NCBI GenBank assembly: GCA_029239975.1
Contig: JARBTX010000008.1
Span: 62,001-126,000, forward strand
Length of the DNA: 64,000 nucleotides
Direction: 5' to 3'
Origin: Anaerocolumna sp.
GTDB lineage: Bacteria; Bacillota; Clostridia; Lachnospirales; Lachnospiraceae
In this document: positions 9,290 through 23,724 of the stretch, piece after piece
Numbering within the stretch: position 1 is the stretch's first letter
How the letters are laid out: every line of letters starts with the position of its first letter
Translations under genes and position numbers: made by a program
The notes under the pieces: model-generated
What the model saw: only the letters and a program-made list of their open reading frames with translations
The model's database searches: none
What the model was told of the DNA's origin: nothing

Positions 9290-11521
9290 TTATTTTTTAC
9301 GAAATTCATTGGGTGTTACACCATTTTCTTTCTTAAACACTCTGTAAAAATATGTGGAATTCGTATAGCCAACCTTACTAGCAATCTCATTTACTGACAA
9401 TTCTGTACTAATTAATAATTCTCTTGCCTTATTCATTCGTTTTCCTGCTAATACATCAATGATTGTACTCCCTGTATACTGTTTATATATTCGACACATA
9501 TATGCCGTAGACATACCAATTGTATCTGCCAGATAGTCAAGAGAAAAGAAGTCGTCTACATATTTTTCGTCTATAATACGATTGATTTTTCCAACAATTT
9601 GCTCTTGTTTCTCATTCTTTCTATTTTCAATTTCAATCTGAATTCGATCAAATAACTCATAGAATTTCTCATTTCTTATTTCTATCGTATCGACTTCCTC
9701 CATAAGATTAGAAAGAGCAAAAAATCCTACAAAAGAAGTTTCTGTACTATTCTTTTTAATTATTCTAACAACGTTGTCTATAGCAAATATTAAACGACTG
9801 ATTGCCATTTTATAAATGATAATAGGATACTGGTACGTTTGTGTTATGATATCCTGATAAATTTTTTTAGCTTCATCTGCTTTACCTAACATCAAACTTT
9901 CCATCAATTGCTTCTCTTTTTGATCAGGATATTCATAATGATAATCTGTTTTTACTTCAAACTCAGATAGGAATTTATGATAAGCTTCTCCATAGAAGAT
10001 ACTTTTTGATAACGTTTCTTCTATATTTTCATACATGGAATATAATTTATCTGGTTCTTCTTCTGTATTACTTACAATAACCGATATAGATATAGAAAAG
10101 TAATCCATTATAGTATGTTGCATTTGATTGATTTGAGTTTCCATATATTCTTTGGATATGGTGGTACCTACATTTAAGATCATCAAACTTTTATCATTTC
10201 CCATATCTAAATAATATGTTTTCGCCTTTTCACCCAGTAATTCATTTAATATATTGAATGCAGCAAATTTAAATGCCTGTATATCTGACGCACTGTTCGT
10301 CTCTAATAATGTTTTATGCCTATCTACATGTAGACATAATAAAATTAATTTATTTTCTTTAGAGAATTCCATACCCACTAACGATAGTAAATCTCTTCCC
10401 GTCTTACGATTTCCTTTGCTATCCTGTCCACCGTTTTCTAATAATTCCACTAGCTTCCTTTTATTCGATACCATCTCTAATTGACGATTTTCACTTTGTA
10501 GATTTTTCACATCCATAGACAAAGATTGAATTGGCAAACTTAATTTCTTTGAAAAGATATGTGCTACTAATCCACCAACTAATGCAATTAATATAGTTAT
10601 CATGATACAGATTGCCTGCATCTTATTCACCTGAGCCAATAAGATATGGTAATCAATTATGCTGATATATCTCCAATGATGCTTGTCTTCACTTGTAAAT
10701 ATAACAATTGACTTGTTACCATCGATTTCCGTTAGAAAGTATCCAGACTCTTCCTTCCAGGTTTTTCTCTCAGGATCAAAATAACGTTGAAGCTTCTCTG
10801 TTACTAAAAACTGATCCGAATTAGAATATATCACTGTATCATTCTGATCTACCACCAAAGAGGTACCATTTAAATCATCTTGATTTTCTTCTTGAAAAAG
10901 GTATTCGGATTCCAAGTTTAGCATAACAACATCACTACGATTGCTATTATTAAATGTATTATACATCATATATGAGTATACATTCTTAGTATAAGTATCA
11001 TTTACTTGATAATATCTTGGCACTGGAATAAATGGTAAATATTCAGTACAATTATTGATCATATGAACAGCCGATTGATCAAAAAATTCGCCATCGTTTT
11101 TATCATAATCCACTCTCCATGGCCGAACTAAATCTGATTCGTTGGTAACACTATAGATTCTATTATTGTTCCTATTATAGATATATATGGAATCCACATT
11201 AGGAACGGTAGCTAAATAATAACGTAATTGTATGAAGGCTGTGTTTTCATCAATAGCATCAACACTCGCAAAGGTACGTAACTTTTTTATAGAAATATCA
11301 TTATATATTTGAAATAATGTACTTAAAGCTATATTAGACAGTTTTGTGATACGCGCTGACTCATTTTCCATCTTTTCAAGTTTCGCTTTATATTCATGTT
11401 TCATAAGAATGGATTGGAAATTAACATAAAGAATCGTTGATGTTAAAAAGATAGCTATGACTACACAAAATATCATAGTGATATATAATTTTAGATGAAG
11501 CCTACCATCTTTTTTATTCAT
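9290..11521 (-). CDS. Membrane-anchored AraC family transcriptional regulator, paralogue of the 6797 gene
   Basis: Same architecture and extensive similarity to 6797..9046. Start reassigned to 11521 (MNKKDGRLHLKLY) on a CGGAGGAACAA RBS. Confidence 0.88.
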   Translation of the reverse strand: MNKKDGRLHLKLYITMIFCVVIAIFLTSTILYVNFQSILMKHEYKAKLEKMENESARITKLSNIALSTLFQIYNDISIKKLRTFASVDAIDENTAFIQLRYYLATVPNVDSIYIYNRNNNRIYSVTNESDLVRPWRVDYDKNDGEFFDQSAVHMINNCTEYLPFIPVPRYYQVNDTYTKNVYSYMMYNTFNNSNRSDVVMLNLESEYLFQEENQDDLNGTSLVVDQNDTVIYSNSDQFLVTEKLQRYFDPERKTWKEESGYFLTEIDGNKSIVIFTSEDKHHWRYISIIDYHILLAQVNKMQAICIMITILIALVGGLVAHIFSKKLSLPIQSLSMDVKNLQSENRQLEMVSNKRKLVELLENGGQDSKGNRKTGRDLLSLVGMEFSKENKLILLCLHVDRHKTLLETNSASDIQAFKFAAFNILNELLGEKAKTYYLDMGNDKSLMILNVGTTISKEYMETQINQMQHTIMDYFSISISVIVSNTEEEPDKLYSMYENIEETLSKSIFYGEAYHKFLSEFEVKTDYHYEYPDQKEKQLMESLMLGKADEAKKIYQDIITQTYQYPIIIYKMAISRLIFAIDNVVRIIKKNSTETSFVGFFALSNLMEEVDTIEIRNEKFYELFDRIQIEIENRKNEKQEQIVGKINRIIDEKYVDDFFSLDYLADTIGMSTAYMCRIYKQYTGSTIIDVLAGKRMNKARELLISTELSVNEIASKVGYTNSTYFYRVFKKENGVTPNEFRKK

Positions 11522-14276: not shown

Positions 14277-15407
14277 TTACCAGATAAATAGTTCCTGACC
14301 AGTTAACTTCCATATTGCTTCAATAAAAAAATAATCACCATATATAATCGCAAATTCATGCTTCTCATCATGATATGCTGCAGTGCAGTTTTCCACTATA
14401 TTATCTGTATTCGTATCCCAGTTACATCGATTGGCTTCTAGTGATTTTAATAATTTTAATGCGTTATTATAATAGATATGCTTCTCATGTTCTGTAACAT
14501 ATTTTTCGATTTCAAGTAATCCACAGGCTGCAATCACGGACGCACAAGAGTCTTCAATCCATGGATCTTGTGGTTGTCTAAAATCTACTGGGATTAGACC
14601 GTTATCTGGTATATTAGCGATAAAATAATTTGCAATTCGTTTGGCTGCATCTAAGTATCTTGTATTCTTAGTATGTATATAACTTAAAGCAAAACCATAG
14701 ATTGCCCATGCTTGTCCTCTTGTCCAAGAAGATCCTTCTTCATAACCTTGCCCACCATAGGTTCTAACCATCTCACCGGTATTAGGATTAAATTCTACAA
14801 TATGATTGACAGAACCATCTCCCCTTATGAAATATTTTTCAGCTGTATCAGCATGAATGGTAGCTATCTGCATAAATCTAGGATCTTTCGTTTCTTCATA
14901 AGCCCAATAAAGTAGTGGCAGGTTCATCATACAATCGATTATTGCCCACCCTATGGTTTTACCCGGTACATTTTCATTCCAAGCACGTATAAATCGTCCA
15001 ACTGGATTAAATCGTCCTGCCAAATCGTTGGCTGCTAAAAGGCCTCTGTTACGAGATTCCTGGTTACCTGTTAGACGATAATGTGCAATGGCTGTTGTTA
15101 ACCACTTAAAACCACTATCATGGTCCATGCCCATAGCATTCATCAGGTTTTGATCTAACTTTCTCTCAGTATCCAGAGCATTTTCCTTATAGATGTCTTC
15201 TTTAGTGGCATTGTACAGCTGCCACATCATACCACCCCAGAAACCATTGGTCCACCAACAAACATTTTCCACAGACATATCATTAAACAAACCGTCCACT
15301 GTAGTATACGGTATTTTATTCTGATTCCTGACTGCTACAATGCTAACCTTTTCCCGTATTTTCTTTGCTACCTCTTCTGCCCAATTCTTATCTTTTACTC
15401 GATCCAA
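14277..15407 (-). CDS. Glycoside hydrolase family 88, unsaturated glucuronyl hydrolase
   Basis: CWWTNGFWGGMMWQLY, MGMDHDSGFKWL, SSWTRGQAWAIYGFALSY motifs typical of UGL. Confidence 0.9.
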   Translation of the reverse strand: MDRVKDKNWAEEVAKKIREKVSIVAVRNQNKIPYTTVDGLFNDMSVENVCWWTNGFWGGMMWQLYNATKEDIYKENALDTERKLDQNLMNAMGMDHDSGFKWLTTAIAHYRLTGNQESRNRGLLAANDLAGRFNPVGRFIRAWNENVPGKTIGWAIIDCMMNLPLLYWAYEETKDPRFMQIATIHADTAEKYFIRGDGSVNHIVEFNPNTGEMVRTYGGQGYEEGSSWTRGQAWAIYGFALSYIHTKNTRYLDAAKRIANYFIANIPDNGLIPVDFRQPQDPWIEDSCASVIAACGLLEIEKYVTEHEKHIYYNNALKLLKSLEANRCNWDTNTDNIVENCTAAYHDEKHEFAIIYGDYFFIEAIWKLTGQELFIW

Positions 15408-15621
15408 TACACTTTCCTCCTTAATATTAATATATAATTAGTGTGATTTTGTTCGTACAAAATGCTATTGAAGTAATAAGATTAAGGCTTCCTAGACCCA
15501 ATTTTACCAATAGATCATTTTGCAGTATTATGTTTTCTATTATACCTAATTGAAATATACAAATTAATAGCTTATAATGTTATATACTAACCTTTTCTGC
15601 TATTATTTATGGAGGATACCT

Positions 15622-16615: not shown

Positions 16616-17308
16616 CTATGCTTCAAAACTATCCTCAAAATAGTCTTTGTAATTTATTTCAATATGAGGTTTCATACGTTCTATACTATAACTTAAATGT
16701 TCTTTCAACACTTCAGCTAATCCAACTTTGTCTTTGTTTTGTATCATTTCAAATATTCTTTTATGATCTTTAATAATTCGAGCAAAATTAGTTTCGGTTT
16801 CAAAATCAAGTTTTCGAAATCTTGTATAATGCACCTGTGCATCTTGTATGATTTCCCATATTTTCATCATGCCGGTCACTTCAAACCAGACTGCATGCAT
16901 CTGTAAATCCAGTTGATAAAACATTTCTGGTGTAAAATCTTTTTCTAATATAATTGCTTCTTGTTTTCGAATCATGTAACGTACATCTTCTAAAATCATA
17001 GGAGTAGTAATATCTATAAAATCGCATATTACGTTCGTTTCAACTGCTATTCTCATATAAATCAACTGTTTTATTTCACTCATATTTAATTTTGTTACAT
17101 ATGTACCATGATATGGCATTGTTGCAACAAAACCTTGTTCCTGAAGACGCCACAATGCATCCCTTACCGGTGTTCTCGATACATTAAATTTCTTACAGAT
17201 TTCATTTTCACTAATTGCTTGTCCGGGAACTAACTCCAAACCAAGAATCTCACTTTTTAACTCTTCATAAACTACGTAACTAAGATTTTTAGTTTCCGAT
17301 TTACTCAT
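16616..17308 (-). CDS. GntR family (FCD) transcriptional regulator
   Basis: N-terminal wHTH (AISENEICKKFNVSRTPVRDALWRLQEQGFV) and helical FCD C-terminus. Confidence 0.9.
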   Translation of the reverse strand: MSKSETKNLSYVVYEELKSEILGLELVPGQAISENEICKKFNVSRTPVRDALWRLQEQGFVATMPYHGTYVTKLNMSEIKQLIYMRIAVETNVICDFIDITTPMILEDVRYMIRKQEAIILEKDFTPEMFYQLDLQMHAVWFEVTGMMKIWEIIQDAQVHYTRFRKLDFETETNFARIIKDHKRIFEMIQNKDKVGLAEVLKEHLSYSIERMKPHIEINYKDYFEDSFEA

Positions 17309-17599: not shown

Positions 17600-18385
17600 T
17601 TATTCCGGTTGCTTACCAATATAAGCCAAAATACCTCCATCTACATATAACACATGTCCATTTACAAAATTTGATGCATCAGAAGCTAAGAATACAGCTG
17701 GTCCCATTAAATCTTCCGGTGTTCCCCAACGTCCTGCAGGTGTTTTTGCAATGATAAAATCATTAAAAGGATTTCCTTTTACACGTAAAGGTTCTGTTTG
17801 TGGTGTAGCAATGTATCCTGGTCCAATACCATTACATTGAATGTTTGAAGCACCATATTCAGAGCAGATGTTTTTCGTTAACATCTTTAAACCACCTTTT
17901 GCTGCAGCGTAAGCAGATACTGTTTCACGTCCAAGCTCACTCATAAGGGAACATATGTTGATGATTTTACCATGACCTTTTTTAATCATGCTTGGAATAA
18001 CTGCTTTTGATAATATAAATGGTGCATTAAGATCAACATCAATAACTTGTCTGAAGTCAGCAGCCGTCATTTCACACATTGGAATTCTTTTGATAATTCC
18101 AGCGTTATTTACTAGAATATCAATTACACCTACTTCTTGCTCAATCTTTGCAATCATCTCAGTTACCATATCTTCATTTGTTACATCACATACATAACCA
18201 TATGCTTTTATTCCAAGTTCTTGATAGGAAGCGATTCCTTTATCGACTAACTCTTGTTTCATATCATTAAAACAAATAGTTGCACCTGCTTTCGCATAAG
18301 CACTTGCAATAGCAAAACCTATTCCATAGGATGCTCCTGTAATTAATGCTATTTTTCCTTCTAACGAAAATTGATTCATTTCCAT
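17600..18385 (-). CDS. kduD: SDR family oxidoreductase, 2-dehydro-3-deoxy-D-gluconate 5-dehydrogenase / gluconate 5-dehydrogenase-like
   Basis: TGASYGIG, NNAGI, SAYAAAKGG SDR motifs; clustered with kduI. Confidence 0.8.
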   Translation of the reverse strand: MEMNQFSLEGKIALITGASYGIGFAIASAYAKAGATICFNDMKQELVDKGIASYQELGIKAYGYVCDVTNEDMVTEMIAKIEQEVGVIDILVNNAGIIKRIPMCEMTAADFRQVIDVDLNAPFILSKAVIPSMIKKGHGKIINICSLMSELGRETVSAYAAAKGGLKMLTKNICSEYGASNIQCNGIGPGYIATPQTEPLRVKGNPFNDFIIAKTPAGRWGTPEDLMGPAVFLASDASNFVNGHVLYVDGGILAYIGKQPE

Positions 18386-18412: not shown

Positions 18413-19720
18413 TTATTTAATTAATCCAAGTCTTTCAGGAATTGTCATAGACAATTCTGGAACATACGTTACTAATAACAATAATATTATAGTAATTATA
18501 AAGTAAGGTATTAAAGTCTTAAACACTTCTTCAATTTTTACATTTGCCACTTTACATCCTGTAAATAAGATTGGACCTACTGGTGGTGTAATTGTTCCGA
18601 TACATAGATTAAATACCATCATGATACCAAAATGAACTGGATGCATACCAAAACTTGTACATATTGGAAGAAAAATTGGCGTAAAGATTAATACTGCTGG
18701 TGTAGGATCCATAAAAGTACCAACAATAAGTAAAATCACATTCATAAGAAGTAATATTACTATTTTGTTATCTGTTAGCCCAATTAAGCCACTTGATATA
18801 ATTGCTGGAATATGAGTAAAGCTTAAAAGCCAACTCATGATGGAAGAAACACCTATCATAAAAATAACAATAGCAGTCATCTTAGCACTATCAAGTAAAA
18901 TTTTATGCAATTGTTTTACTTTTAGTGATCGATAGATAAAACTTAATATTAAAGAATATACAACTGCAATTGCGGAACCTTCTGTTGCAGTAAAAACACC
19001 TTTTAAGATACCACCAATTACTATTATAATAAGTAGTAAACTAGGAATTGCTTCTATAATTGTTCTGATTGCTACTGATAAAGTAAGTTTTTCATTTGCT
19101 CTATAGCCACGTTTTGCAGCCATAATTCCTGCTATTAACATAACACCAAGTCCCCAGATAATTCCTGGAATATATCCTGCCATAAACAATGCTGAGACAG
19201 ATACACTACCTGCAACAGTTGAATATACAATTACTGTATTACTTGGTGGAATTAACATTCCAGTTGGTGCAGATGCAATATTAACTGCTGCAATATATTC
19301 TTTTGAATATCCTTCTTTTTCTTCTAATGGTCCTAATGTACCGCCAATCGCTGCTGCCGCTGCAACTCCCGAACCACTGATTGCTCCAAAAAGCATATTT
19401 GCCACAACATTGGTCTGTGCTAACGCGCCAGGCATCCTTCCACTTAAAACCTTTGCGCAATTTACTAGTTTTATTGCAATACCACCATTATTCATAATGT
19501 TACCCGCTAGTATAAAAAACGGTATAGCTAGTAATGAGAACGAATTCACACCAGAGAATATTTTTTGTGATGAAGTCGTCATAGCATTTTCAAAAGGAAG
19601 AATTAATAACATTGCTATAGTTGATGCTGCACCAATACTAATACTAATTGGTACTCCCATAACCAACATAACTACAACACCAATTAAAAGCACCAACCCT
19701 ATAATCATTGCTTCACTCAT
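18413..19720 (-). CDS. TRAP transporter large permease (DctM)
   Basis: Hydrophobic DctM family protein; GAISGSGVAAAAAIGGTLGPLEEKEGYSKEYIAAVN motif. Confidence 0.92.
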   Translation of the reverse strand: MSEAMIIGLVLLIGVVVMLVMGVPISISIGAASTIAMLLILPFENAMTTSSQKIFSGVNSFSLLAIPFFILAGNIMNNGGIAIKLVNCAKVLSGRMPGALAQTNVVANMLFGAISGSGVAAAAAIGGTLGPLEEKEGYSKEYIAAVNIASAPTGMLIPPSNTVIVYSTVAGSVSVSALFMAGYIPGIIWGLGVMLIAGIMAAKRGYRANEKLTLSVAIRTIIEAIPSLLLIIIVIGGILKGVFTATEGSAIAVVYSLILSFIYRSLKVKQLHKILLDSAKMTAIVIFMIGVSSIMSWLLSFTHIPAIISSGLIGLTDNKIVILLLMNVILLIVGTFMDPTPAVLIFTPIFLPICTSFGMHPVHFGIMMVFNLCIGTITPPVGPILFTGCKVANVKIEEVFKTLIPYFIITIILLLLVTYVPELSMTIPERLGLIK

Positions 19721-19722
19721 GA

Positions 19723-20220
19723 TTATAATCCCCCTTTCACATTAATTTTTTTGAATTCACGTAATAGATTTCTTTCATTAAATAGAAAATAAAAAATAAT
19801 AAAGCAAGAACTTATTGGTACTGCAGAATAAATTACTCCCATAGGAATCTGTAATGTTGCGTCCAACTGTACCATCTGATCAGCCATTTGTTTAAATCCA
19901 CCATACACTAAAACACCCACAGTAAACAATACAATAATAACTTCACTAATAATCTCAATTATAATCCTTGCTTTTGCAGGCATTTTTTCTCGCACTACTG
20001 CAATATTCATATGTTCGCGTAATCCAAATACATAAGCAGAACCGTACATAATTAACCAAACAAACATATACTTAGAAATAATTTCTGTATAAGCATTAGG
20101 GTTATTAAAAAAATAACGTACGATAACTTGATAGGTTACTAATATAGTCATTAATGACAATAGAATAACGCAAATCCATTCGATCGTTTTATCTAAAATT
20201 CTTTTGATAGAGTCCATCAA
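19723..20220 (-). CDS. TRAP transporter small permease (DctQ)
   Basis: Four TM segments; located between DctP and DctM. Confidence 0.9.
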   Translation of the reverse strand: MMDSIKRILDKTIEWICVILLSLMTILVTYQVIVRYFFNNPNAYTEIISKYMFVWLIMYGSAYVFGLREHMNIAVVREKMPAKARIIIEIISEVIIVLFTVGVLVYGGFKQMADQMVQLDATLQIPMGVIYSAVPISSCFIIFYFLFNERNLLREFKKINVKGGL

Positions 20221-20293: not shown

Positions 20294-21310
20294 TTATTCT
20301 GCTAAAGCTCTAATTTGGTCATATAATGCCTTAGCGTTTTCGCTCTTACCTACAACATCAGCTATAACAGGTTGAACTGCCTCTTGGAATGGAGTAATAT
20401 CAACTTCTGTAAATGTTGCTCCGCCTGCTTTTGCAGTTTCAATAGCTGTTTCTATTTGTTCATTCCAAAGTTCGAATTCACGATTTGTATATTCTTTACA
20501 AAGATCTTTTAAAATCTTCTGGTTTTCTTCACTCATACCGGAAAGTGTATCTGCATTGATTACTAATAAATCTGGAATCATAAGATGTCTTGTGTAAGAG
20601 AAAAATGGAGCTACTTCATAATGTTTTAAATCTGCATAAGTAATTTCATTATTTTCTCCACCATTAATGATACCTTGTTGAATTGCAGTATATACTTCAC
20701 CTTGTGCCATAGGAGTTGCAACACCACCCATAGCATTTAACATAGCGATTGAAGTAGGTGCTTCCATAACTCTGATTTTATATCCAGCTAAATCTTCTGG
20801 TTTTGTAATTGGCTTATCAGTATAAACACAACGAGAACCTGCGGTAAATGCTGCTAATACGTTAAATTTATTTGCAGTAGTACTTGTAAAAATATCGTCT
20901 AGAATACCACTTGTAAATACTTTTTTCTGATGTTCAATGCTATCGTATGCATATGGTAATCCAAGAACTGCAAAATCACTATTTACATTTTCAACAATTG
21001 AATTAGCTACCATTGCCATTTGTATCGTACCATTTTGAACTAATTCAAACGCATCTTTTTGTGAACCAAGAAGTTCATTCGGACTTATTTCAATCTCATA
21101 TGCTCCGTTTGTTGCTTCTTTTAGTTCTTTACTTAATTCAGCTAATGCTTTGTACTGTGGGTGATTCTCTGACTGATTAAATGCTAATTTTAAAGTTGTT
21201 GTTTTTCCAGCTCCACCTTGTCCATTATCTCCAGTTGAAGCTTTTCCACATCCTGCTAATGACAATACCATAGCTCCTGCTAAAATTGCTGCTAAAATTC
21301 TTTTCTTCAT
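20294..21310 (-). CDS. TRAP transporter substrate-binding lipoprotein (DctP)
   Basis: Lipobox (MVLSLAGCGK); DctP-type sequence (GYKIRVMEAPTSIAMLNAMGGVATPMAQGEVYTAIQQGIINGGENN). Confidence 0.92.
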   Translation of the reverse strand: MKKRILAAILAGAMVLSLAGCGKASTGDNGQGGAGKTTTLKLAFNQSENHPQYKALAELSKELKEATNGAYEIEISPNELLGSQKDAFELVQNGTIQMAMVANSIVENVNSDFAVLGLPYAYDSIEHQKKVFTSGILDDIFTSTTANKFNVLAAFTAGSRCVYTDKPITKPEDLAGYKIRVMEAPTSIAMLNAMGGVATPMAQGEVYTAIQQGIINGGENNEITYADLKHYEVAPFFSYTRHLMIPDLLVINADTLSGMSEENQKILKDLCKEYTNREFELWNEQIETAIETAKAGGATFTEVDITPFQEAVQPVIADVVGKSENAKALYDQIRALAE

Positions 21311-21370: not shown

Positions 21371-22213
21371 TTATTTAAGTTCTGTTTTTATTATATTGTC
21401 CATATCATCAAAGGCTTGGTTTTCTCCACCCATTGCCCATATAAATGTATAATTAGAAGTTCCTGCTCCACAATGAATACTCCAACTAGGACTAATGACA
21501 GCTTCTTCATTTTTCATAACGAGATGACGAGTTTCTTGTGGTTCACCCATCATATGAAATACAACATTATCTTCTGGCACTTCAAAATACATATATATTT
21601 CCATACGACGTTCATGTGTATGACATGGCATGCTATTCCAAACACTACCAGCCTCTAATACTGTCATACCCATGGATAATTGACAGGTCTCTAATACATC
21701 TGGATGTATAAATTGATTGATAGTTCGCTTATTTGATGTATTTGCTTCTCCAACTGCTCGTTTTGCTGCGTTTTCAATTGGAATTAATGCAGTTTTACAT
21801 ACCTTGTGTGCTGGCGCACTAACCATATAAAATTTTGCAGGGTCTTTTGCATCATCACTGGAAAATAATACTTCTTTCGTTTCTTTCGCAATATATAGGC
21901 AGTCTTTATATCCCATTTCATATATTACTCCATCGGCCTTAACACTACCTTTACCACCAATGTTAAAAATACCAATTTCACGACGTTCCAAAAAGTAATG
22001 AGTTCCAAAGTTTTTCCAACAATCGATTCCTTTATCAATTGAAACTGTTTCAGTTGTTGGCATACATCCAAGAGTAACCATACGATCAACGTGGGAATAT
22101 ACTGCCTTAACTTCATTCGCCTCATATAAGTTTTGTATCAAAAACTCTGAACGAAGCTCATTTGTTGTGTATCTTTTTACATCTTTTTGATTTGCTGAAT
22201 ATCGAATATCCAT
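21371..22213 (-). CDS. kduI: 5-dehydro-4-deoxy-D-glucuronate isomerase
   Basis: MDIRYSANQKDVKRYTTNELRSEFLIQNLY; EAGSVWNSMPCHTHERRMEIYMYF; start at 22213 on a GGAGGAACAA RBS. Confidence 0.93.
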   Translation of the reverse strand: MDIRYSANQKDVKRYTTNELRSEFLIQNLYEANEVKAVYSHVDRMVTLGCMPTTETVSIDKGIDCWKNFGTHYFLERREIGIFNIGGKGSVKADGVIYEMGYKDCLYIAKETKEVLFSSDDAKDPAKFYMVSAPAHKVCKTALIPIENAAKRAVGEANTSNKRTINQFIHPDVLETCQLSMGMTVLEAGSVWNSMPCHTHERRMEIYMYFEVPEDNVVFHMMGEPQETRHLVMKNEEAVISPSWSIHCGAGTSNYTFIWAMGGENQAFDDMDNIIKTELK

Positions 22214-22242
22214 TTGTTCCTCCTTTATATGATATAACATTT

Positions 22243-22310
22243 TTTGTATACACATTATTTTGTTGTATATATGTATTTTACTTGTATACAAATTAATTAT
22301 TTGTATACAT
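22243..22310. promoter_or_regulatory. Array of four TTGTATAC-type palindromes, 19-bp period (putative GntR operator)
   Basis: Palindrome cores at 22246-22251, 22265-22270, 22284-22289 and 22303-22308. Confidence 0.6.
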
Positions 22311-22404
22311 ATTAACACATCATATCAACTTGTGCAACATGTTAATTTAACCAAATATATGAGCGAAAACTTTAGTTAATATTACTGTTACTTATTTTAA
22401 ACAT

Positions 22405-22452: not shown

Positions 22453-22470
22453 ATTATTAACTATTCTATA

Positions 22471-22580
22471 AAGTTATATTATCAATTTATAATGTTATAT
22501 TATCAATTCATAATGTTATATTTTCATTTCATAAGTTATATTATTAATTCATAATGTTCTATTATCAATTTATAAAGTTC
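22471..22580. repeat. AT-rich tandem repeat, about 21-bp unit, about 5 copies
   Basis: aagttatattatcaatttat / aatgttatattatcaattcat / aatgttatattttcatttcat / aagttatattattaattcat / aatgttctattatcaatttat. Confidence 0.75.
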
Positions 22581-22678: not shown

Positions 22679-23464
22679 TTATTGTTCCAGTATTCTTTGT
22701 ATTGTATCTTTCGTTTTCAATATATCCACAGATAATTGCTTCACTCTATCATCTGTCATAAGTACTGCCGGCGCAGAGATACTGAATGCATTATTCGGGA
22801 GACCATGTAGATCACGAACACAAACCGCAATACATCGCACACCAAGCTCATTTTCTTCATTATCAAGCGCATAAGCATTTCTACGAATTTCGTTTATTTC
22901 AATCATAATTTTTTCAAATGTGGTTATTGTATGTTCTGTTTTCTTTTCAATAATACTGTTTTTCCAGATATATTTAATGTCCTCATCTTTCATTTCAGCT
23001 AAAATCGCTTTCCCAACTGCTGAACAATACATAGGCCTTGCAACTCCTACTTGCGAAGCCATACGAATTGCACTTTCACGCGGATCCACAGGTTCCACTT
23101 TATCTAAATAGAATACTTCTGTTCCTTCTCTTCGAACAAAATGAACGGTTTCTCTACATTTATTTGCTAACTCTGCAATTAATGGATGTACCATTGAAAC
23201 GATATCTGTTTTTGCTTTCACTTTCTCTGATAATTTTACAATTTTAAATGTGAGACAATATTTACCCGTATCATCCTGCTTCACATAATCCATACAGATC
23301 AACGATAAGAGTAGCCTATGAACAGTACTCTTATGCAATTCTAGCCGATTACTTAAATCTATAATTCCAATTGGTCCTGTTTCTGCCAATACTTCTAAAA
23401 CTCTAAAAATTCGTTCTGCGGATTGCACTGGATTTTTAGTACCTTTTATACTACCCTCTTCCAT
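22679..23464 (-). CDS. IclR family transcriptional regulator (KdgR-like)
   Basis: SAERIFRVLEVLAETGPIGIIDLSNRLELHKSTVHRLLLSL wHTH; divergent from kdgA; start at 23464 on GGAGG. Confidence 0.88.
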   Translation of the reverse strand: MEEGSIKGTKNPVQSAERIFRVLEVLAETGPIGIIDLSNRLELHKSTVHRLLLSLICMDYVKQDDTGKYCLTFKIVKLSEKVKAKTDIVSMVHPLIAELANKCRETVHFVRREGTEVFYLDKVEPVDPRESAIRMASQVGVARPMYCSAVGKAILAEMKDEDIKYIWKNSIIEKKTEHTITTFEKIMIEINEIRRNAYALDNEENELGVRCIAVCVRDLHGLPNNAFSISAPAVLMTDDRVKQLSVDILKTKDTIQRILEQ

Positions 23465-23640
23465 AAATACCTCCAAAGTTTAATCTATATAAAAATTTAG
23501 CCAAATGATTGAAGTAAAGTAACATGATTAGTTTATCAGTACAATCATAAAATTTCAAGATACGCGATATAATAAATCCCAACAAGTAAACTGATTCATA
23601 AACAGTACAAGGATAACATATCTTTTTAATCTTAAATTTC

Positions 23641-23684: not shown

Positions 23685-23699
23685 TGAAACTTTGTTTCA
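23685..23699. promoter_or_regulatory. KdgR-like operator box
   Basis: TGAAACTTTGTTTCA palindrome, with ATTGTGAAAC repeated directly downstream. Confidence 0.6.
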
Positions 23700-23724
23700 T
23701 ATTGTGAAACCATAGGAGGTTATA

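Follow-up and report, generated by a model that had tools for sequence, protein, structure and literature searches.

A row of four equally spaced palindromes precedes the kduI operon in the window, a 64,000-nucleotide stretch of Anaerocolumna sp. DNA. Which regulator reads these sites, and what does their regular spacing signify?

Four palindromes across a predicted promoter

The operon runs leftward on the minus strand in the order kduI-dctP-dctQ-dctM-kduD-gntR. Its first gene, kduI (21371..22213), encodes 5-dehydro-4-deoxy-D-glucuronate isomerase (NF002091.1, 430.6 bits against a cut-off of 250). Profile matches identified the solute-binding subunit DctP (20294..21310) and the large permease DctM (18413..19720) of a TRAP transporter, and the small permease DctQ (19723..20220) was recognized by a weak match below the cut-off. 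They are followed by a kduD-type SDR dehydrogenase (17600..18385), whose top model is gluconate 5-dehydrogenase NF005488, and by an FCD-type GntR regulator (16616..17308; PF00392 and PF07729 above cut-off), the proposed array binder. An IclR gene (22679-23476) lies upstream of kduI, with kdgA and kdgK divergent. These genes and a GH88-like hydrolase gene (14277-15407) mark a pectin or uronate catabolic region. The source genome has a second kduI (G000:C156:32804-33607) that is 56% identical.

Direct reading and a pattern scan placed the palindrome centres at 22248.5, 22267.5, 22286.5 and 22305.5, confirming the three steps of 19 bp given in a preliminary description of this DNA. Counted from the promoter-proximal end, candidate operator site 1 (22301..22310) reads TTGTATACAT forward and ATGTATACAA on the minus strand, one mismatch from a perfect palindrome. 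Site 2 (22282..22291) is the perfect palindrome TTGTATACAA, site 3 (22263..22272; TTGTATATAT) is the weakest with two mismatches, and site 4 (22244..22253; TTGTATACAC) has one. Tandem Repeats Finder returned a period of 19 with 4.1 copies. The array totals 4 mismatches in 40 positions and is the best equally spaced four-site chain in the window when spacings of 15-30 bp are allowed. Among chance chains, the minimum was 10-15 mismatches when the whole window was sampled 60 times with a Markov-1 model, and 11-18 when the intergenic region (21% GC) was sampled 2000 times. A chance origin in AT-rich DNA was rejected on these grounds, since every Markov sample required at least 10 mismatches. The array is also the sole multi-site 19-bp chain in the whole 4.8-Mb genome. 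The single palindrome TTGTATACAA is not enriched genome-wide (20 exact copies versus 19 for the reversed control), and a genome-wide regulon of single palindromes was therefore rejected. Because the single 10-mer is unenriched, the signal is carried by the tandem arrangement.

The kduI ATG at 22213 is preceded by a directly readable Shine-Dalgarno sequence, AGGAGG (22219..22224, minus strand), and the array occupies the region 30-98 bp upstream of the ATG, inside the predicted leader. A predicted extended -10 element, TGTTAATAT (22309..22317, with TAATAT at 22309-22314), and a predicted -35 element, TTGCAC (22332..22337), are separated by a 17-bp spacer on the minus strand, an arrangement that recurs in orthologous loci. 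Transcription presumably starts near 22302, within site 1, which overlaps both the predicted start and the last two bases of the predicted -10. Because the extended -10 overlaps site 1, the array spans the transcription start and the leader, with sites 2-4 in the leader. The array had previously been placed upstream of the operon. This is correct with respect to the kduI start codon, but the array is not merely upstream, as it covers the -10/+1 region and the leader.

Its position inside a predicted transcribed leader, and the presence of another AT-rich tandem repeat, of 21 bp, upstream at 22455-22579, might suggest that the array is structured leader RNA, or AT-rich repeat DNA with an intrinsic bend, rather than a protein site. 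However, the leader folds no better than its shuffles (z -0.44), no Rfam family matches it, loopless 10-bp palindromes are unable to form hairpins alone, and the conserved part is the palindromic core, not composition. Such an origin is scarcely credible.

Spacing of the palindromes in related operons

Comparison within the genus was uninformative, as none of 14 other congeneric genomes encodes the GntR. Its nearest relatives are found in Herbinix and Anaerobium, and the patchy operon was perhaps horizontally acquired. Orthologues with 55-71% identity were present in seven further family genomes, in each case next to kduI, kduD or both. At 6/7 of these loci the region just upstream contains palindromes spaced by 19 or 20 bp, and the seventh (L018) has one palindrome and a half-site. 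A collection scan yielded 80 loci with orthologues of the operon's FCD GntR (53-86% identical), three of which (L025, L030 and L076) are truncated at contig ends. Among sites with at most two mismatches at the 80 loci, 19 pairs were 19 bp apart and 52 pairs were 20 bp apart (71 together). Any other distance below 39 bp was represented by at most three pairs.

To reduce redundancy, 63 promoters with flank identity below 70% were anchored on their best site. Second sites fell at -20 (18), -19 (16), +19 (9) and +20 (21), or 64 matches where about 0.6 per offset is expected by chance; 300 shuffled sets gave at most 6 at any offset. With spacing left free between 14 and 26 bp, 84/87 neighbouring sites were at 19 or 20 bp. 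The preliminary description had made conservation of the spacing in close relatives the test of its proposal, and the 80-locus set bears it out with 19/20-bp arrays upstream of orthologous operons. Its picture of four sites strictly 19 bp apart applies less widely. The restricted spacing is general, but the interval is 19 or 20 bp and three sites are typical. Among the loci studied, four sites at exactly 19 bp occur only in the window and in L034.

Two or more tandem palindromes characterize a clade of 46 proteins that includes the window GntR. When sites with up to three mismatches were counted, arrays lay upstream of kduI or kduD at 48 loci, 11 of them with two sites, 30 with three, 6 with four and 1 with five. 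A related kduI-gntR clade (L067-L101, about 21 GntRs) has a single palindrome followed 9 bp downstream by the half-site ATACAA (16/16). Its proteins have K in place of the S of the tandem clade at position 33, adjoining the contact residue Glu34. Two loci (L070 and L086) have a two-mismatch site, and no site was found at L037 or L099. The closest GntR relative (L024, Herbinix, 83%) belongs to an operon lacking kduI and dctPQ, and this operon has no array. Two TTGGATACAA sites 23 bp apart (9378-9410) accompany a distant homologue (37%) whose operon is gntR-kduI-kduD (L021).

Because the sister clade works with a palindrome and a half-site, an array of several full sites is inessential. This, together with the degeneracy of sites 3 and 4, could mean that the best palindrome is a single working operator, the remaining copies being either remnants of tandem duplication or weak bystanders. 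Comparison of the loci argues otherwise. The linkers are not duplicated and average 47% identity between loci, while the sites are retained at 77%. Mapped on the GntR tree, switches between 19 and 20 bp number at least eight on the upstream side and at least five on the downstream side, and none leads to 18 or 21 bp. Insertions and deletions thus occur, but just 19 and 20 bp are kept, which indicates selection on spacing. Selection on the extra sites explains both the linker/site contrast and the spacing limits and leftover repeats do not, so a single operator is unlikely.

Tandem palindromes 20 bp apart as a generic feature of other Lachnospiraceae operons were rejected, as a pattern search of 397 genomes gave approximately chance numbers, mostly three-mismatch matches. 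A one-mismatch match from this search (L124) was discarded because it lies within coding sequence. Another match, L125 in a further Lachnospiraceae genome, has a different layout at another operon. Its three TTGTATACTA/TTGTATATAT palindromes (1501-1530) overlap at 10-bp steps between a sugar-kinase-like and a SIS-domain-like gene, and are probably a different GntR operator.

The proposed regulator of the array

The sites share a GT-N2-AC core, and TTGTATACAA fits the FadR-subfamily consensus as judged from position frequencies over 105 sites. FCD (FadR-subfamily) GntR operators are AT-rich palindromes with conserved TKGT/ACMA boxes and a GT-N2-AC or GT-N3-AC core (PMC4494728). Because the 80 loci were gathered via the GntR itself, a reciprocal control was carried out with 30 kduI promoters from 200 family genomes, chosen regardless of GntR. 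A palindrome with at most one mismatch was present in 4/4 kduI promoters with gntR in the operon and in 0/26 others (Fisher p = 3.6e-5). Furthermore, Hungatella-type genomes, which have gntR with kduD and kduI at a separate location, carry the array at kduD and none at kduI. This co-occurrence and placement indicate that the array tracks the gntR operon, as expected of an autoregulatory operator.

The protein sequences are consistent with this assignment. Glu34, Arg45, Thr46 and Arg49 are invariant in 80/80 GntR proteins, with the same numbering as in Agrobacterium Atu1419. In this FCD protein, which was crystallised with the 10-mer ATGTATACAT, the four residues contact DNA (PMC7797058). That 10-mer is nearly identical to site 1, and the contact residues are common to both systems. 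The metal-ligand pattern D134, H138, H182 and H204 is also invariant in all 80 proteins, as in the FCD metal pockets of DgoR and TM0439 (PMC7674646).

The IclR-type regulator directly upstream has KdgR, the classical kdu regulator, as its best model, and it or an AraC-type regulator at 15577 might bind the array instead. Yet an IclR homologue was found in 0/80 array loci. The array contains no TGAAACnnnGTTTCA-like IclR/KdgR palindrome, of which the window has one perfect match, at kdgA. A perfect KdgR/PlaR-type box, TGAAACTTTGTTTCA, lies beside iclR at 23685-23699, 1.4 kb from the array. Binding of the array by a neighbouring regulator is therefore very improbable. The earlier choice of the operon's own FCD GntR as cognate regulator is upheld by the co-occurrence and by the array following gntR, and comparative sequence data allow this regulator to be named with good confidence.

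The TGAAACTTTGTTTCA box, compared with the KdgR/PlaR consensus of PMC6958661, is located just downstream of the TTGACA-17-TATACT promoter of kdgA-kdgK and has a half-site near 23703-23711. Standing beside the divergent IclR gene, it is likely an IclR operator.

A literature search, which mostly did not extend to subscription papers, returned nothing specific on TTGTATACAA with GntR or on kdu regulation by GntR in Lachnospiraceae. These bacteria are common in guts, and their regulation of kduI/kduD is undescribed in the literature found. The present assignment would provide a regulator, an operator and a promoter for the kdu/TRAP uronate operon of Lachnospiraceae, including Hungatella, Enterocloster, Lacrimispora, Anaerobium and relatives.

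A possible mechanism and its precedents

The array is best read as an autoregulatory operator row for the operon's FCD GntR (probability roughly 0.8), with one dimer per palindrome, cooperative repression and an acid inducer. FadR-type dimers cover approximately 19-20 bp of DNA. One GntR dimer would be seated on each 10-bp palindrome, and dimers 19-20 bp apart would then lie edge to edge, touch and load cooperatively. With no inducer present, the occupied row would stop RNA polymerase and serve as a roadblock. Entry of a pathway keto-acid or sugar acid into the metal-containing FCD pocket would release the row and switch on the genes for uptake, kduI, kduD and the repressor itself, with negative feedback. 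We infer that the GntR binds the array, that it represses rather than activates, and that it answers to an inducer. By analogy with FCD proteins whose metal pockets share the D/H/H/H pattern, a compound such as KDG or one of the pathway's diketo acids would be a likely inducer.

FCD activators exist, such as the citrate activator CitO (PMC4746285), and the GntR could bind the array as an activator. Position argues against it, since the array starts on the -10 and runs downstream of the predicted start in the window and in most multi-site loci. The register TTGnnn-17-TGnTAnnnT is shared by most multi-site loci, where the -10 and the first site have 2 bp in common; across the clade the -10 reaches 2 or 4 bp into the first of the tandem sites. 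Five loci (L026, L032, L033, L034 and L040) have an additional weaker site in the -35/-10 spacer. The predicted layout of promoter and array is repressor geometry, and activation appears improbable.

The autoregulatory row has precedents, and the array is a variant of the known tandem FCD operators of NanR and DgoR, not a new class. E. coli NanR with its (GGTATA)3 operator is likewise a FadR-subfamily GntR acting on repeated sites at an acid-sugar catabolic operon (PMC8012715). Several NanR dimers bind side by side with spacing-dependent cooperative repression, and cooperative multi-dimer loading is proven there (PMC8012715). Both operators have two or more sites at restricted spacing, here 19/20 bp only. 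They differ in that NanR recognizes single GGTATA repeats about half a turn apart, whereas the sites here are full palindromes 19-20 bp apart. NanR cooperativity depends on a 32-residue N-terminal extension (PMC8012715) that is lacking in all 80 GntR proteins, each of which has 9-13 residues ahead of the column of window residue V13; the protein here has only about 12 before its helix-turn-helix domain. The spacing constraint suggests, by analogy with NanR, that dimers cooperate here as well.

E. coli DgoR is an FCD repressor of a sugar-acid operon, with closely spaced inverted repeats overlapping the promoter and a metal-dependent effector pocket (PMC7674646, PMC12288454). It has two repeats with GT-N3-AC cores, in contrast to the 2-5 repeats with GT-N2-AC cores and fixed 19/20 spacing found here. 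The Atu1419 palindromes do not form a tandem array: 109-190 bp separate them, and a tetramer bridges them with looping (PMC7797058). Thermotoga maritima UxaR (TM0439; PDB 3sxy, 3fms), among the nearest solved structures to the window GntR by sequence, is an FCD GntR for pectin/uronate catabolism. The accessible part of its description reports a 17-nt motif in several operons and does not describe a phased array (PMC3750489). The survey by Suvorova et al. 2015, which included one clostridial FadR-subfamily regulator, reported weaker boxes 7-12 nt from the GntR palindrome centre, and the half-site at +9 in the single-site kduI clade resembles them; the survey described half-boxes but no chains of full palindromes (PMC4494728).

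The four sites had also been called phased. With 10.5 bp per helical turn, successive sites are rotated by -69 degrees when 19 bp apart and by -34 degrees when 20 bp apart. Because 19 bp falls short of two full turns, the term calls for caution, and the four window sites do not share one face of the DNA. Contact between nearest neighbours accounts for the strict spacing better than face alignment. We tentatively suggest that an FCD GntR without a NanR-type extension might form a short left-handed row of one dimer per 19-20 bp (-34 to -69 degrees) through an undescribed dimer-dimer interface, and that evolution might tune it by the number of seats (2 to 5) or by the 9-bp half-site layout. The loci form a natural operator series for one orthologous repressor, with one site and a half-site or with two, three, four or five sites at 19 or 20 bp. 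With this series, cooperation of FCD dimers without the NanR-type extension is directly testable.

The AT-rich 21-bp repeat upstream of the kduI promoter is a second regular array, seen among 200 family genomes in the source genome only. It consists of TTATNAATTNATAA palindromes at 22479, 22500, 22541 and 22562 and a two-mismatch copy at 22521, with spacings of 21, 21, 20 and 21 bp.
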